This document shows positions 43,328 to 61,673 of a stretch of DNA of 64,000 nt, piece after piece. Numbering within the stretch: position 1 is the stretch's first letter; every line of letters starts with the position of its first letter. The notes below the pieces were generated by a model. That model was not told the DNA's origin. It did no database searches and saw nothing but the letters and a program-made list of their open reading frames with translations. The stretch is taken from NCBI GenBank assembly GCA_944392655.1, contig CALXXL010000006.1, positions 1 through 64,000 of the forward strand, in the 5' to 3' direction. This stretch comes from an uncultured Victivallaceae bacterium. Its GTDB lineage: Bacteria; Verrucomicrobiota; Lentisphaeria; Victivallales; Victivallaceae. Made by a program: the position numbers and the translations under genes.

Positions 43328-44530
43328 ATGAAAAAATTACTCTTGGCGGCGGCGGTTCTCGGAGTAACCGGTATAATGACAGCCGGCGAAGTACTGCCTA
43401 AGATTGAAGATGTGGATAAGTATATGACCATCAAGGAGCCGGATGAATCCGGCCTGGTCTGGTACAAGCCGGACGTGGCGGAGGATTCCCCGTTTAAACT
43501 CATCGGTTTCTACTGGTACGGCAAGGATCATATCTACAACCGCCTGCCGCAGGGGATCGATCTTCCTCTGACTGACGGGGTAAAATACCTGAGCCGCCAT
43601 ACCGCAGGCGGTCAGGTACGCTTCCGCACCAACAGCAAACGGGTAGTAGTGCGGGCGAAAACATCCGGCTTCGGAGTAATGAACCACATGGCGCAAACCG
43701 GCTCCGGCGGTTTTGACCTCTACGCCGGAGATGGAACAGATCAGGTATTCTGGCGCACAACCACCTATCCAACGGGCGAAACCAATATAAATTCGCTCCT
43801 GTTTAACGAGGGCGATGGCAAGACAATGCACGACTTCACCTTGAACTTCCCGCTCTACAACGGGGTTGAGTCGCTGGAAATCGGCGTGGACGAAGGTGCG
43901 GAGTTTGAAACGCCGCTGCCGTTTGAAGATGACCGCCCGATTGTCATTTACGGCACCAGTATTACGCAGGGCGGCTGTGCGTCGCGTCCCGGGAGCTTAT
44001 TTACCAATATTTTAAGCCGTAGGCTGAACCGTCAGTTCATCAATTTAGGCTTCTCCGGCAACGGCCGCGGCGAACCGGAGCTGGCGAAGATCATAAATAT
44101 GATTGACGATCCGGCGCTGATCATTCTGGATTATGAAGCCAATGCTGAAACCGACATGGATAAAACCCTGGCTCCGTTTATGGAAATTCTGCGCGAACAC
44201 GACCCGGATGTCCCGATACTTATCATGACCAGAATCCGCTTCGCCAGCGAAGCGTGGTTCAACCGGAACACTATGGATGACCCGCGTGAAGAGCGGGCGC
44301 AGATCCGCTTCAACCATCAGAAAAACGAGTATGACAAATGGGTGGCGCGCGGCGATAAAAACATCTATTTCCTCGATGGCGGCACGCTGTTGGGCGACGA
44401 CTACGCCGACTGCACGGTAGATGGCATTCACCCGACCGATATGGGCTTCTTCCGCATGGCTGACAATATGGAGCCGGTTCTGCGCGATATTCTGGCGAAA
44501 TATCCGAAGAATGCGGATAAAGCCGAATAA
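43328..44530 (+). CDS. SGNH-family carbohydrate esterase (copy B)
   Basis: The 400-residue protein is identical to that at 41368, including the signal peptide, GTSITQGG serine motif and DGIHPTDMGF motif. The bases appear identical too. The gene therefore provides extra dosage of the same enzyme. It lies between the broken dnaQ-like fragment and the full second esterase gene, each with its own promoter and terminator. Confidence 0.85.
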   Translation: MKKLLLAAAVLGVTGIMTAGEVLPKIEDVDKYMTIKEPDESGLVWYKPDVAEDSPFKLIGFYWYGKDHIYNRLPQGIDLPLTDGVKYLSRHTAGGQVRFRTNSKRVVVRAKTSGFGVMNHMAQTGSGGFDLYAGDGTDQVFWRTTTYPTGETNINSLLFNEGDGKTMHDFTLNFPLYNGVESLEIGVDEGAEFETPLPFEDDRPIVIYGTSITQGGCASRPGSLFTNILSRRLNRQFINLGFSGNGRGEPELAKIINMIDDPALIILDYEANAETDMDKTLAPFMEILREHDPDVPILIMTRIRFASEAWFNRNTMDDPREERAQIRFNHQKNEYDKWVARGDKNIYFLDGGTLLGDDYADCTVDGIHPTDMGFFRMADNMEPVLRDILAKYPKNADKAE

Positions 44531-44659: not shown

Positions 44660-45856
44660 ATGAAAAAGAGCATTATCTCCGTACTGGCGGCCACTGCCGC
44701 AGCAACTGCGATTGCGGGCGGACCGCTGCCGAAAATCGAGGATCTGGACCGCTATATGACCATCAAGGAGCCGGATGAATCCGGATTTGTCTGGTACAAG
44801 CCGGATGTGAGCGAAGATTCGCCATTCAAATTAATCGGTTTCTACTGGTATGGTGAAGATCACATCTTCAACCGCCTGCCGCAGAAATCCGGCATTGAGT
44901 TTCCCAAAGGGGTAAAAGTACTTGCACAACATACTGCTGGTGGACAGGTGCGCTTCCGCACCAACAGCAAACGGGTGGCGGTGCGGGCGGAGACGACCGG
45001 ATTCGGTGCAATGAACCACATGGCGCAGACCGGCTCCGGCGGGTTTGACCTGTATGCCGGCAAAGGCACGGATCAGATATTTTTGAAGACCACCACTTAT
45101 CCGTTGAATGAAACAAAATTCACCTCAATCCTGTTTACCGAAGGCGATGGTGAAACGATGTACGACTTCACCTTGAATTTTCCGCTCTACAACGGAGTCA
45201 AATCGCTGGAGATCGGAGTAGATGCCGGAGCGGAGTTTGAAACGCCGCTGCCGTTCGTGGATGACCGTCCGATTGTCATCTACGGCACCAGCGTCACCCA
45301 GGGCGGCTGTGCATCGCGTCCGGGAAGTTTATTTACCAATATATTGAGCCGCCGGCTGAACCGTCCGTTCATCAATCTCGGATTCTCCGGCAACGGCTGC
45401 GGCGAACCGGAGATGGCGCATCTCATCAATTTGATCGACAACCCGGCTCTCATTATCATCGACTACGAAGGCAATGCGGATGAAGCTATGGACAAAACGC
45501 TTACGCCGTTTATGGAAATCCTGCGCAATCACGATCCGGATGTTCCGATACTTATCATGACCAGAATCCGTTCCGCCTTTGAAGCGTGGGGACACTCCAA
45601 CACCATGGCCGACCCGCGGGCGGAGAGAATGCAGATCCGCTATCAGCACCAGAAGAATGAATATGACAAATGGGTAGCCCGCGGCGATAAAAACATCTAT
45701 TTTCTCGATGGCGGCACGCTGTTGGGCGACGATTATGCCGACTGCACGGTAGACGGCATTCACCCGACCGATATGGGATTCTTCCGCATGGCTGACAATA
45801 TGGAGCCGGTTCTGCGCGATATTCTGGCGAAATATCCGGTTGAAAAGCAACAATAA
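44660..45856 (+). CDS. SGNH-family carbohydrate esterase (paralogue)
   Basis: A 398-residue paralogue of the genes at 41368 and 43328, with very high similarity over the whole length. Signal peptide at residues 1-19 (SVLAATAAATAIAGG). GGFDLYAG, GTSVTQGG with the catalytic serine, GFSGNGCG and DGIHPTDMGF are present. Sequence differs most in the middle (GMEFPKG-like and WGHSNTMAD regions), so substrate may differ. AAAGGA precedes the ATG. Its 5' end was copied to 42700. It is likely exported to act on polysaccharide esters. Confidence 0.85.
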   Translation: MKKSIISVLAATAAATAIAGGPLPKIEDLDRYMTIKEPDESGFVWYKPDVSEDSPFKLIGFYWYGEDHIFNRLPQKSGIEFPKGVKVLAQHTAGGQVRFRTNSKRVAVRAETTGFGAMNHMAQTGSGGFDLYAGKGTDQIFLKTTTYPLNETKFTSILFTEGDGETMYDFTLNFPLYNGVKSLEIGVDAGAEFETPLPFVDDRPIVIYGTSVTQGGCASRPGSLFTNILSRRLNRPFINLGFSGNGCGEPEMAHLINLIDNPALIIIDYEGNADEAMDKTLTPFMEILRNHDPDVPILIMTRIRSAFEAWGHSNTMADPRAERMQIRYQHQKNEYDKWVARGDKNIYFLDGGTLLGDDYADCTVDGIHPTDMGFFRMADNMEPVLRDILAKYPVEKQQ

Positions 45857-47951: not shown

Positions 47952-48008
47952 TTTTAGACTCCTTTTTTTCAGTTTTTAATACATAATTGTTTGTTTTCAT
48001 ATCAAACA

Positions 48009-48045
48009 GGCTTCCGGCAACGGAGGTTGTCCATTGCCGGAAGCC
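48009..48045. repeat. Hairpin between dnaK and groS
   Basis: 12-bp stem GGCTTCCGGCAA / TTGCCGGAAGCC with a 13-base loop. No T tract follows on the minus strand, so it may be a processing or attenuation hairpin and not a full terminator. Confidence 0.6.
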
Positions 48046-48056
48046 CGGTTCAATCC

Positions 48057-49961
48057 TTACTTGTCGTCAACGACTTCAGCGTCAACGATATTGTCGTCAT
48101 CGTTCTTGCCGCCGGCCTGACCGCCGTTGTCCGCCGTGCTGCCGGAAGACTGCTGCTGTTGCTGCTGCTGGGAGTAGATCTCCTGACCGAGCTTCATCAG
48201 ATTTTCTTCCAGGCTCTTCATGGTAGCTTTCATAGCTTCAGTATCGTCGGCTTCGAGCTCTTTCTTAAGTTTGGCTATACCGTCTTCAACCGGAGCTTTG
48301 ACTTCCGGAGAGACCTTGTCGCCGAATTCCTTGAGCTGTTTTTCGACCTGATAAACCATCGAATCAGCCTGATTTTTGACCTCAATCTTTTCCTTCTGCG
48401 CCTTATCCTGTTCAGCATGAACCTTGGCGTCGTTCACCATCTTTTCGATCTCGTCATCATTCAAGCCGCTGTTGGCGGTAATGGTGATCTTCTGTTCCTT
48501 GCCGGTACCGCGGTCCTTGGCGGTAACGTGCAGAATACCGTTGGCGTCGATATCGAAAGTAACTTCGATCTGCGGGACTCCGCGCGGCGCCGGTGCGATA
48601 CCATCCAACCGGAAGTTACCGATGGTCTTGTTATCCGAAGCCATTTCACGTTCCCCCTGCAACACATGGATATCAACCGACGGCTGATTATCCGCGGCCG
48701 TACTGAACACCTGGCTCTTGCGGGCAGGAATCGTAGTGTTACGGTCAATTAAGCGAGTGAATACGCCGCCCAGCGTTTCAATACCGAGGGACAACGGAGT
48801 AACGTCGAGCAGAACCACGTCATTGACTTCGCCGCCGAGCACACCGCCCTGAATTGCAGCGCCGCAGGCCACAACTTCGTCCGGGTTTACCCCCTTGTGC
48901 GGTTCTTTACCGAAGATGCTCTTGGCTTCGTCCTGAACTTTCGGCATACGGGTCATACCGCCGACCATAATAACTTCCTTGATATCGCTGCTGGAAATGC
49001 CTGCGTCTCTCACGCAGTTCCGGCACGGAATTTCAGTACGCTTAATCAGGTCATCAACCTGTTTTTCCAGTTCGGAACGGGTCAGGGTGATGTTGAGATG
49101 CAACGGACCATCAGCATTCATAGTAATGAACGGCAGATTGATTTCGGTGCTCATGCTGCTGGAAAGTTCGCATTTCGCCTTTTCGGCAGCTTCCTTAAGC
49201 CGCTGCAACGCCTGAGAATCCTTACGCAGGTCGATAGAGTTTTCGGCTTTGAATTTTTCCGCCAGGAAATCGATCAGTTTCTGGTCAAAGTCATCCCCGC
49301 CGAGGTGGGTATCACCGTTGGTGGATTTAACTTCAAACACGCCGTCGCCGATTTCGAGGATGGATATATCGAACGTACCGCCGCCGAGGTCGTATACCGC
49401 AACGACTTCTTCCGATTTCTTATCCAGACCGTAGGCCAGAGCCGCGGCAGTCGGTTCATTCACGATACGCAGAACTTCCAGACCGGCGATCTTACCGGCG
49501 TCTTTGGTCGCCTGACGCTGACTGTCGTTAAAATAAGCCGGAACGGTGATAACCGCCTGCTTGATCTCTTCGCCCAGGTAGGCTTCCGCATCGGCTTTCA
49601 GCTTCTGCAGAATCATCGCGGAAATTTCCGGCGGTGAATAGAGTTTGTCGCCGATCTTGATATAAGCGTCGCCGTTCTTCGCTTCCACGATTTCATACGG
49701 TACGCTTTCGCGTTCGATGTCAACTTCCTTGAAGCGGCGTCCCATAAAACGCTTTACAGAGAACACCGTGTTCTTGGGGTTGGTTACCGCCTGACGTTTG
49801 GCCAGCTGACCGACCAGACGTTCACCACTCTTGGTAAAAGCAACTACCGACGGGGTAGTGCGGTTGCCTTCCGCATTCGGAATAACCTTGGCTTCCCCGT
49901 GTTCCATTACCGCCATACAACTGTTGGTGGTACCTAAGTCAATACCTAAAATCTTGCTCAT
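48057..49961 (-). CDS. dnaK: Hsp70 chaperone DnaK
   Basis: A 634-residue Hsp70. The N-terminal ATPase includes [25 protein letters not shown], and [11 protein letters not shown]. The substrate domain includes [14 protein letters not shown]. The C-terminal lid ends in a Q-rich linker (seven Q) and DAEVVDDK. The ATG is preceded by AAGGAG eight bases away. A perfect sigma-54 promoter lies 55 bp upstream. No dnaJ, grpE or hrcA gene is in the window. The gene follows rsmE after 196 bp and precedes groS. Confidence 0.98.
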
Positions 49962-50015
49962 GATACTTTCTCCTTTTTATTTAAATTTTATTTTTTTCGC
50001 AAACACCTGTCTATT

Positions 50016-50033
50016 TAGCAAACCCCGTGCCAA
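50016..50033 (-). promoter_or_regulatory. Sigma-54 (-24/-12) promoter of dnaK
   Basis: On the minus strand the sequence TTGGCACGGGGTTTGCTA fits the RpoN consensus TGGCACG-N4-TTGCW exactly. GG at -24 and GC at -12 are 10 bp apart, as required. The predicted start would be about position 50005, leaving a 44-nt leader with AAGGAG. It is the only clear -24/-12 site I found in an intergenic region. Confidence 0.8.
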
Positions 50034-50053: not shown

Positions 50054-50101
50054 TTGACCGTGAATGCCGGATAGGGCAAGGTAAAAAAGAGAAAAAACGC
50101 G

Positions 50102-50131
50102 CACAATGTGTCACAATGCGTCACAATGTGT
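50102..50131. repeat. Three 10-bp tandem repeats, enhancer candidate
   Basis: CACAATGTGT, CACAATGCGT and CACAATGTGT follow without gaps (one change). The 10-bp spacing puts each on the same DNA face. They lie about 97-126 bp upstream of the predicted start, a usual place for activator sites of sigma-54 promoters. Confidence 0.6.
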
Positions 50132-50141
50132 GCCAAAAGTA

Positions 50142-50160
50142 TGACACAAAATCTGTGTCA
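50142..50160. promoter_or_regulatory. TGACACA-N5-TGTGTCA inverted repeat
   Basis: Perfect 7-bp arms with a 5-bp centre, overlapping the rsmE stop codon. It lies about 137-155 bp upstream of the predicted dnaK start. It has no T run and so is not a terminator. With the tandem repeats it may bind an activator. Confidence 0.5.
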
Positions 50161-50868
50161 CAGCAGTTTCCCAAGCAGGAATGAGAGCGCAACTTCGCTT
50201 CTGAGTATGCGTGGCCCCAGAGAAACTCTTGTTGCCCCCTGCTCCGTCAGCAGTTGAATCTCATAGTCGGTAAATCCGCCTTCCGGACCGAGGCAGACAA
50301 CGGTTTCCCGGTCATGAACCGGCTTAATCTCATCCGCGTCAGGTGCGGGGTGGAATGCGAGCAATTCTCTGCCCGCGGCCAATCCCGGCAGGATATCTTC
50401 GGCAAAAGGTTTAAAGAAACGGTGGAAATGAATTTGCCATGGGACGGTGTCCACACACTGTTCCAGCGCGAGACGCATCTCCTGATTGAGAAAATCCGGT
50501 TCGAGAAACGGCGAATCCCAGTAGCTCTTCTCCACCTTGAATGTGCCGATAAAATGAAACTCCTTGACTCCGAGCGTTCCGGCATAATGGAGCATTTTGC
50601 GCAAAGTTTTCGGGCGCGGGAGCGCGCTGACCAGAATCAAAGGCGCAGCCGGAGGCGGAGGCGCGGCAAGTTGCAGTTCAATCGTGAGCGAATCCGCATC
50701 CAGCCGGGTTATCAGTCCGGTGCCGATATTGCCGTTCAAAAGACCGCATTTGCACTCATCCCCGGTTTTCTTGCGCAGCTGTCCTCTGATATGGTCGAAC
50801 CGCCGTCCGGTAATGACGGCGCGGGAGCCGTCAATCAAATCACAATTTTCAATCAGAATCATATTCAT
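50158..50868 (-). CDS. rsmE: 16S rRNA m3U1498 methyltransferase
   Basis: RsmE methylates U1498 of 16S rRNA. It has about 236 residues and a SPOUT fold. The knot motif VCLGPEGGFTDYEI and the C-terminal SLGPRILRSEVA are characteristic. The N-terminal PUA-like domain includes DHIRGQLRKKTGDE. The ribosome site is not clear, and an in-frame ATG two codons later is as good. It precedes dnaK by 196 bp on the same strand and is divergent from the HD gene. Confidence is high. Confidence 0.93.
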   Translation of the reverse strand: MNMILIENCDLIDGSRAVITGRRFDHIRGQLRKKTGDECKCGLLNGNIGTGLITRLDADSLTIELQLAAPPPPAAPLILVSALPRPKTLRKMLHYAGTLGVKEFHFIGTFKVEKSYWDSPFLEPDFLNQEMRLALEQCVDTVPWQIHFHRFFKPFAEDILPGLAAGRELLAFHPAPDADEIKPVHDRETVVCLGPEGGFTDYEIQLLTEQGATRVSLGPRILRSEVALSFLLGKLL

Positions 50869-60014: not shown

Positions 60015-61673
60015 ATGCAGCGTTTTTATGGTTTTTTTGCAGCTCTTTTGATGCTGTTCAGCTGGACGGTATGCGCCCAGCAGATTCAGGAGCCGGCTCC
60101 CGGCGCCTCACAGGAAGAGATCGACGCGTTTGTCGCATCTCTGCCGGACGACGGTGACCCTTTGACCACCAAGATTGAATACAAGAACGAATACGGCGCC
60201 GATGTGATAGACGTCTACTATATCTGGGATAAACCGGCTACGGTTATGTCAGTATATATCGCCAACGGCAAGAAGGTTACTCCGGGCCGTGAATTGATGA
60301 ACCTTGACGTTCCCGGACGCAGCAAGGCGAAATTCAAAGCTGAAGCAGGCGGGATTATCACTTATGTCAATCCCGATCTGGTGGCTGCCGGATCTATTTC
60401 CAAAGGTCAGAAGCTCTTCAGTATGCAGCCTAAGACTCTGGTGCATGACTCACTTGACAGCAATGACCCCAACGCCAATAAGAAGCTGCCGTCGATGAGC
60501 GTCATGTTCAACGGACTCTGGCAGAGCACTGGTATCTATGATATAATTCATCAGACCAGCGCTGACTTTGCCAAAACCTGGATTCTCGGTCTTGGCCGTG
60601 TAGTTATGATGCTGGTAGGCGTACTGTTGCTTTACCTGGCCATTGTTAAGGAGTTTGAACCTCTGCTGCTGCTGCCGATCGGCTTCGGTGCGATTCTGGC
60701 CAACATTCCGCTCGCCGGAATGGCCGGTCCGGAAGGTATTCTCGGCATATTCTATGTCTGCGGTTTGGAAAGCGGATTGTTCCCGCTGCTCATCTTCATG
60801 GGCGTAGGTGCGATGACCGACTTCGGTCCGCTTATCGCCAACCCGAAAACCGCGCTGCTCGGCGGTGCGGCGCAGCTTGGTATCTTCTTTGCGCTGATTG
60901 GTGCGTTGCTGCTCTCGGTATACGTTCCCGGCATCACCTTCACTCTGCGTGACGCGGCCTCCATCGGTATCATTGGCGGTGCTGACGGCCCGACGGCGAT
61001 TTACCTGACCAGCAGACTTTCTCCGCACCTCCTCGGTGCGATTGCGGTGGCGGCGTACAGCTATATGGCTCTGGTGCCGATCATCCAGCCGCCGATCATG
61101 AAGCTTTTCACGACTGAAGCGGAACGTAAGATCAAAATGAAACAGCTCCGCAATGTCTCCAAGCTGGAAAAGATATGCTTCCCGGTGCTTATCACCTTCC
61201 TTTGCGCCTTCCTGCTGCCGGATGCCGCTCCTTTGATCGGTATGCTGATGTTCGGTAACCTGATGCGCGAATGCGGAGTGGTGGAACGCCTCAATCAGAC
61301 TGCGCAGAATGCGTTGATCAATATCGTAACCATATTCCTCGGTCTGACCGTCGGTTCCAAGCTTTCAGCCGACCAGTTCCTCAATATGAATACCATCGGT
61401 ATTCTGATTCTGGGAGCTATCGCCTTCGCTGTCGGTACCGCCGGCGGGGTTATATTTGGCAAGATCATGAACATGTTCAGCAAAGACAAGATCAATCCGT
61501 TGATTGGTGCGGCCGGTGTATCGGCGGTACCGATGGCAGCGCGTGTTGTCAACAAGGTTGGTCTTGAATCTGACAAACACAACTTCCTCCTGATGCATGC
61601 GATGGGCCCGAACGTTTCCGGCGTTATCGGTTCTGCGGTGGCAGCCGGTGTGCTGCTGAAGATGCTGCAATAA
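60015..61673 (+). CDS. oadB: Decarboxylase Na+ pump beta subunit with N-terminal extension
   Basis: A 552-residue membrane protein. Residues about 160-552 are the OadB core: the Na+ site segment [10 protein letters not shown] and [18 protein letters not shown] keep the residues known to matter in Klebsiella OadB. Residues 1-21 look like a signal peptide ([12 protein letters not shown]). About 75-138 form a biotinyl/lipoyl-like repeat ([11 protein letters not shown] ... [10 protein letters not shown] ... ISKGQKLF) but with no lysine at the biotin position. The core should use decarboxylation to export Na+. GGAG lies nine bases before ATG 60015. The extension is unusual for OadB, which is normally near 430 residues. 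Confidence 0.88.

Follow-up and report, generated by a model that had tools for sequence, protein, structure and literature searches.

A predicted sigma-54 promoter before dnaK in the Verrucomicrobiota and its probable NtrC-type activator, shared with clpB

Chaperone control is poorly worked out outside Proteobacteria, Firmicutes and Actinobacteria, and the dnaK locus of an uncultured Victivallaceae bacterium raises the question of which sigma factor, and which regulator, directs transcription of this gene. The window, by which we mean the whole stretch of 64,000 nucleotides analysed here (contig CALXXL010000006.1, positions 1 to 64,000), had been given an initial annotation that placed a perfect sigma-54 promoter match before dnaK and suggested control by an RpoN activator, perhaps extending to groS-groL. 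Our analysis points to dnaK being transcribed from a sigma-54 promoter under an NtrC-type regulator that would bind an upstream palindrome, serve clpB as well, and date back to the ancestor of the phylum, a reading in which we have high confidence.

The promoter element and its conservation

The features below make up dnaK and the 196-bp gap that separates it from the upstream gene, the length of which agrees with the initial annotation.

48057-49961, minus strand: dnaK (HSP70), the controlled gene (ORF; PF00012, E 2.5e-273), start codon at 49961
49970-49973, minus strand: GGAG, ribosome-binding site of dnaK (from sequence)
50006, minus strand: predicted +1, by standard sigma-54 geometry 12 nt downstream of the GC element (C50018 = -12)
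50016-50033, minus strand: sigma-54 -24/-12 element TTGGCACGGGGTTTGCTA, 12/12 consensus, conserved in relatives
50158-50868, minus strand: rsmE-like 16S rRNA methyltransferase gene, upstream neighbour (ORF; PF04452)

Read on the minus strand from 50033 to 50016, the element matches all 12 fixed positions of TGGCACG-N4-TTGCW, as the initial annotation had it, with GG (50031-50030) and GC (50019-50018) spaced 10 bp apart; it likewise agrees with TGGCACR-N4-TTGCW, and it is the only perfect -24/-12 match of the window. The predicted transcription start lies at about 50006, leaving a 5' leader of about 45 nt. When up to 2 mismatches are allowed, the window shows no enrichment of such sites (6 observed versus 11.2 expected), and the consensus match alone is thus weak evidence, the promoter call being carried by conservation.

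To this end 109 dnaK upstream regions were assembled, comprising 30 from the order (own genome included), a further 15 from the order, 25 from other orders of the class and 39 from other classes of the phylum, and a site was counted when at least 10 of 12 positions matched within 250 bp of the dnaK start codon in the right orientation. Sites were present in 30/30 and 15/15 upstream regions of the order, 19/25 of the other orders and 34/39 of the other classes, a total of 98 of 109 versus about 5 expected, and mostly 50-120 bp from the start codon. Dinucleotide shuffles yielded 0.04-0.05 sites per sequence and the reverse strand 1 site in all sets together; a recognisable dnaK site is missing in some genomes of the class, for example G049.

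These counts bear directly on the possibility that the match arose by chance and that a housekeeping sigma-70 promoter drives dnaK, to which the lack of enrichment of approximate matches, as well as a weak sigma-70-like match (10/12) at 49985-50013 that overlaps the leader, would lend themselves. Across that segment, however, sigma-70 matches fail to rise above shuffles (8.47 versus a mean of 8.08), and with the conservation described we regard this reading as having next to no probability. The view that the match was unlikely to be fortuitous, formed beforehand from a single site, thereby gains the backing of the phylum. The initial annotation had also tied its reading to the presence of an rpoN gene, which was found as one copy in the own genome (PF04552, E 6e-54) and in 21 of 21 genomes. 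The dnaK promoter is thus almost certainly a sigma-54 promoter, and with rpoN present and the site conserved across the phylum, dependence on sigma-54 together with an enhancer-binding activator, as first proposed, is very probable.

None of the classical heat-shock elements was found before dnaK, and CIRCE, HAIR and sigma-32 boxes were accordingly rejected as its control elements. Congruent with the earlier remark on CIRCE, the repeat TTAGCACTC-N9-GAGTGCTAA has 0 matches in the window at up to 3 mismatches, and none turned up in the scanned dnaK upstream regions of relatives, part of which loci were read in the wrong orientation. The only window match to HAIR, CTTGAGT-N7-ACTCAAG (3 mismatches, at 61563), is not above chance, and the sigma-32 box CTTGAAA-N12-CCCCATNT is absent upstream of dnaK, with 8 matches in the window versus 6.6 expected. 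A second layer of heat control may exist besides sigma-54.

A palindrome upstream of the promoter

A second conserved element, absent from the initial annotation, is the palindrome TGTGNCA-N3-TGNCACA upstream of the dnaK promoter. Its profile, built from repeated TGTG/CACA half-sites, was trained only on the 30 dnaK upstream regions of the order, and recovers the following copies.

50109-50125, minus strand: putative activator site, best copy TGTGACGCATTGTGACA, 16.1 bits (profile scan and genome-wide palindrome search)
50119-50135, minus strand: putative activator site TGGCACACATTGTGACG, 14.3 bits, one helical turn upstream (profile scan; 10-bp direct repeat)
50099-50115, minus strand: putative activator site TGTGACACATTGTGCGC, 11.7 bits, one helical turn downstream (profile scan; 10-bp direct repeat)
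50142-50160, minus strand: palindrome TGACACAGATTTTGTGTCA, half-sites as above but spacer of 5 nt; overlaps the stop codon of rsmE (sequence; 7.3 bits)

The first three overlap, spanning 50099-50135 with a period of 10 bp, one helical turn, and are centred about 111 bp before the predicted +1. Upstream activator sites of sigma-54 promoters typically lie some 80-150 bp before the start; the dnaK palindromes fall within this range and are conserved in relatives, and their spacing and symmetry fit the site of an enhancer-binding protein. In the sets that took no part in training, matches of at least 11.5 bits occur in 14/15 (order), 19/25 (class) and 27/39 (other classes) upstream regions, versus about 1% of shuffles. 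The outlying element at 50142-50160 is a perfect inverted repeat, TGACACA / TGTGTCA, and could serve as an additional binding site or as an alternative one.

The genomes compared are those of the GTDB phylum Verrucomicrobiota, with Lentisphaeria, Kiritimatiellae and Akkermansia included. Genome G171, which we take to be Akkermansia muciniphila from the Amuc_1100 gene on its chromosome, carries two palindrome copies before dnaK, TGTGACATTTTGTCTCT and TGTGACATTATGTCCCG, 24 bp apart and upstream of TTGGCATGCCATTTGCAA. In the best explanation of this distribution the predicted sigma-54 arrangement of dnaK is ancestral to the phylum, and a whole phylum, the human-gut symbiont included, appears to run dnaK by an all-or-none sigma-54 mechanism. 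As a separate observation, G141 has two dnaK-like genes (L216, L237), one preceded by a sigma-54-like (11/12) and a palindrome-like element (9.9 bits) and the other by neither.

The candidate activator and its targets

Four full enhancer-binding proteins are encoded in the own genome: two of GAF type (C11:43161 and C25:1704), one with an unassigned N-terminal domain (C12:4778) and one NtrC-type response regulator, which is accompanied by a kinase.

C1:199679-201031: NtrC-type response regulator (PF00072 receiver, PF00158 Sigma54_activat, PF02954 Fis-type HTH, all above cut-off)
C1:201035-202207: soluble PAS histidine kinase (PAS, HisKA, HATPase_c), directly before the regulator

The presence of four such proteins, and the wide occurrence of the two GAF-type ones in the order (35/41), would permit a sigma-54-dependent dnaK served by a GAF-type or the C12 protein instead. 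GAF-type matches are, however, absent from G003, G009, G023, G025, G026 and G030, whose dnaK elements were present where examined, with both promoter and palindrome kept in G003, G009, G023, G026 and G030; the GAF-type proteins were therefore rejected as activator. The C12 protein, found in only 7/41 relatives, was likewise rejected. Moreover, in an enhancer-binding protein census of ten genomes, three (G003, G009 and G019) have the response regulator alone, as a full-length ortholog (54-57% identity), and despite this single enhancer-binding protein keep the dnaK promoter and palindrome. Considering also that the palindrome stands before the response regulator's own operon, we deem another activator very unlikely. 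The C12 protein itself (C12:4778-5860; L046, L059) begins with a domain of some 190 residues that has no Pfam match, its gene adjoins that of an ankyrin-repeat protein, and its distribution is patchy.

The NtrC-type regulator, on the other hand, has an ortholog in 34/34 phylum genomes searched (48-59% identity, nearly full length). It is the sole enhancer-binding protein of two 0.9-Mb genomes; in G113, the one of the two whose dnaK elements were examined, these are degenerate (9/12 and 11.5 bits). GAFTGA is visible in the AAA+ domain sequence of the own regulator, and its orthologs share an almost unchanging recognition helix, LGISRRTLxRK; LGISRRTL helices are common in NtrC-type proteins generally. 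A kinase-like ORF adjoins the regulator in 17 of the 28 orthologs readable in the loci examined, and the A. muciniphila kinase aligns with the own kinase over its whole length (32% identity, E 4e-70). The regulator gene of A. muciniphila begins near position 368,029 of its 2,664,102-bp chromosome.

The kinase-regulator operon carries the palindrome as well. In the own genome the kinase start codon is preceded, at 24-40 bp, by TGTGTCATTTTGACACT (C1:202231-202247), the only palindrome of at least 13 bits in 16 kb around the operon, and A. muciniphila has CGCGACAATGTGTCACA (16.2 bits) 87 bp before its kinase gene. Four relatives (L355, L358, L359 and L367) show palindromes of at least 12 bits at the kinase start and L382 one upstream of the regulator, with only two others elsewhere in these loci. 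No clear -24/-12 site stands alongside in the operons that carry the palindrome, so that the effect of the regulator at these operons may be repression or modulation. Regulators of the NtrC type commonly control themselves, and it is on the elimination of the other proteins, together with the palindromes before its own operon, that we assign the regulator with its adjacent PAS kinase as the most likely activator of dnaK.

The regulon was searched genome-wide with sequence patterns. TGGCAC-N5-TTGC occurs 8 times in the 2.34-Mb genome versus 3 for the reversed pattern, and three of the eight matches precede a gene in the right orientation and at a promoter-like distance, namely dnaK, clpB and the glutamine synthetase gene. 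The strict palindrome occurs in 8 places versus 2 for the reversed control; six of them are within coding sequence, and the only two outside are before dnaK and clpB, where a sigma-54 site follows each of them. The own clpB upstream region reads TGTGCCATTTTGACATA and TGAGCCATTATGACGCA, then, at 67 bp from the start codon, the sigma-54 site CTGGCACGCATTTTGCTG. Within the order, clpB upstream regions have the promoter in 22/30 and the palindrome in 13/30 cases (shuffles, 0.018 and 0.005 per sequence), a recognisable site being missing before clpB in about a quarter of the order. As clpB was never used for training of the profile, its matches are independent support.

By these elements the second predicted target is clpB, not groS-groL. 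The extension of RpoN control to groS-groL, which the initial annotation had raised together with a scan of other chaperone genes, is not supported: upstream of groS-groL the best -24/-12 match reaches 7/12, too few for a site, the palindrome is lacking, and a strong terminator-like hairpin follows dnaK.

48007-48047, minus strand: terminator-like hairpin after dnaK, 18 pairs followed by T residues, separating dnaK from groS-groL

We thus rejected groS-groL as part of the same system. In other respects the finding is larger than stated initially, with sigma-54 control of dnaK predicted phylum-wide and, in this order at least, extending to clpB. Two further matches deserve mention. The glutamine synthetase gene, glnA, has a sigma-54 site of its own, TTGGCACGGATATTGCTA (C11:52688-52702; L005); the TGTGNCA palindrome was not found upstream of glnA in the own genome, and the gene is presumably under a different activator than dnaK. 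A sigma-54-like match at C2:5516-5530 (L001), about 20 bp before the rpmI start codon, is inside the infC-rpmI translation operon with no strict palindrome nearby, and was treated as probably a chance match.

In the mechanism that we propose, sigma-54 RNA polymerase would transcribe dnaK from the -24/-12 element at 50016-50033 and be held there as a closed complex until an activator acts. An enhancer-binding protein would occupy the palindromes at 50099-50135, some 111 bp upstream of the start, and from there loop over and open the promoter by ATP hydrolysis; this protein would be the NtrC-type regulator (C1:199679-201031), phosphorylated by the soluble PAS kinase (C1:201035-202207), and it would also drive clpB and probably control its own kinase-regulator operon. 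Promoter, palindrome, the conservation of both and the distribution of the regulator are read from the sequences, and from these we infer binding and activation at the dnaK palindromes. The proposal offers named parts for experiments: a kinase, a regulator, a candidate binding site and two promoters.

Signal, related systems and wider spread

Judging from the target genes, we lean towards heat or misfolded protein, that is protein damage, as the signal. Alternatively, the promoter might be real but respond to growth phase, nitrogen or envelope status via the PAS kinase, with basal chaperone supplied from another promoter. The kinase resembles NtrB in being soluble and having a PAS domain, and a sigma-54 site precedes glnA here as well; NtrB/NtrC nitrogen control shares with the present system the domain architecture of kinase and regulator and the sigma-54 mechanism. 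It differs in that TGTGNCA-N3-TGNCACA is absent before glnA here and is unlike the NtrC site, TGCACC-N5-GGTGCA. Sigma-54 promoters of Flavobacterium psychrophilum as a group respond to blood agar, osmotic pressure and plasma (PMC9723704), which would also fit a signal other than heat. Against this stand the targets themselves, dnaK and clpB being classic protein-quality genes, and the lack of the palindrome before glnA; we consider a signal other than heat unlikely, though it retains appreciable weight, and keep protein damage as the preferred reading.

There is precedent for several elements of this arrangement. In Myxococcus xanthus direct control of the heat-shock protease gene lonD falls to HsfBA, which pairs a kinase with an NtrC-like response regulator and so sets a precedent for NtrC-like regulation of a heat-shock gene; by description it differs in its hybrid kinase and in other targets such as secondary metabolism, and it is not known to act on dnaK (PMC9109919). 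In F. psychrophilum the mapped starts of dnaK, groES-groEL, grpE-dnaJ, clpB, lon and htpG carry -24/-12 motifs. It is thus alike in the sigma-54 promoters at dnaK and clpB, and differs in belonging to Bacteroidota and in including groES-groEL, which is not the case in this window; the available part of that paper names neither the activator nor an upstream site (PMC9723704). A sigma-54 regulon prediction published in PLoS One in 2025 has a chaperone cluster including DnaK enriched in Planctomycetota and Bacteroidota, and differs, as far as its available part extends, in mentioning Verrucomicrobiota only for other functions and in leaving the chaperone upstream site and activator unnamed (PMC12316311).

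The literature searched yielded no report of sigma-54 chaperone control in Lentisphaerota or Verrucomicrobiota. The initial claim that no case is described in Lentisphaerota stands to that extent, but sigma-54 chaperone promoters as such are known in F. psychrophilum (PMC9723704) and predicted for Bacteroidota and Planctomycetota (PMC12316311). Relative to the literature searched, the new elements are the extension across the phylum, the binding site and the activator; the promoters in Flavobacterium and the predictions for Bacteroidota and Planctomycetota are known.

When GTDB genomes were scanned for the promoter with a dnaK start 40-70 bp behind it, at least 116 stretches came up, the taxonomic spread of which is given as a sample, by the 80 matches listed. 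Among these 80, we assign 44 to Bacteroidota, 16 to Planctomycetota, 15 to Verrucomicrobiota in the wide sense and 5 to Fibrobacterota, Poribacteria, FCPU426 or unnamed bacteria, with none assigned to Pseudomonadota, Bacillota or Actinomycetota. Although the loci were picked for the promoter only, the core palindrome TGNCA-N3-TGNCA precedes dnaK in 25/44 Bacteroidota and 11/16 Planctomycetota among the matches listed, versus 0.06 and 0.04, respectively, expected by shuffling. This suggests an ancestral chaperone control that the phylum shares with Bacteroidota and Planctomycetota, where promoters are known or predicted without a named activator in the available parts of the sources. More tentatively, and with slightly less than even confidence, one ancestral sigma-54 two-component system, a soluble PAS kinase with an NtrC-type regulator reading TGNCA-N3-TGNCA, could be the master chaperone control of the PVC/FCB bacteria (Verrucomicrobiota, Planctomycetota, Bacteroidota), replacing sigma-32 and HrcA and sensing protein damage by phosphorelay. 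If so, a phosphorelay would take the place of a heat-labile sigma factor or repressor as the damage sensor.

Elsewhere in the window, the plus-strand genes at 43328-44530 and 44660-45856 are adjacent and encode closely similar secreted proteins, SGNH/GDSL-type hydrolase-like by eye, in a tandem duplication.
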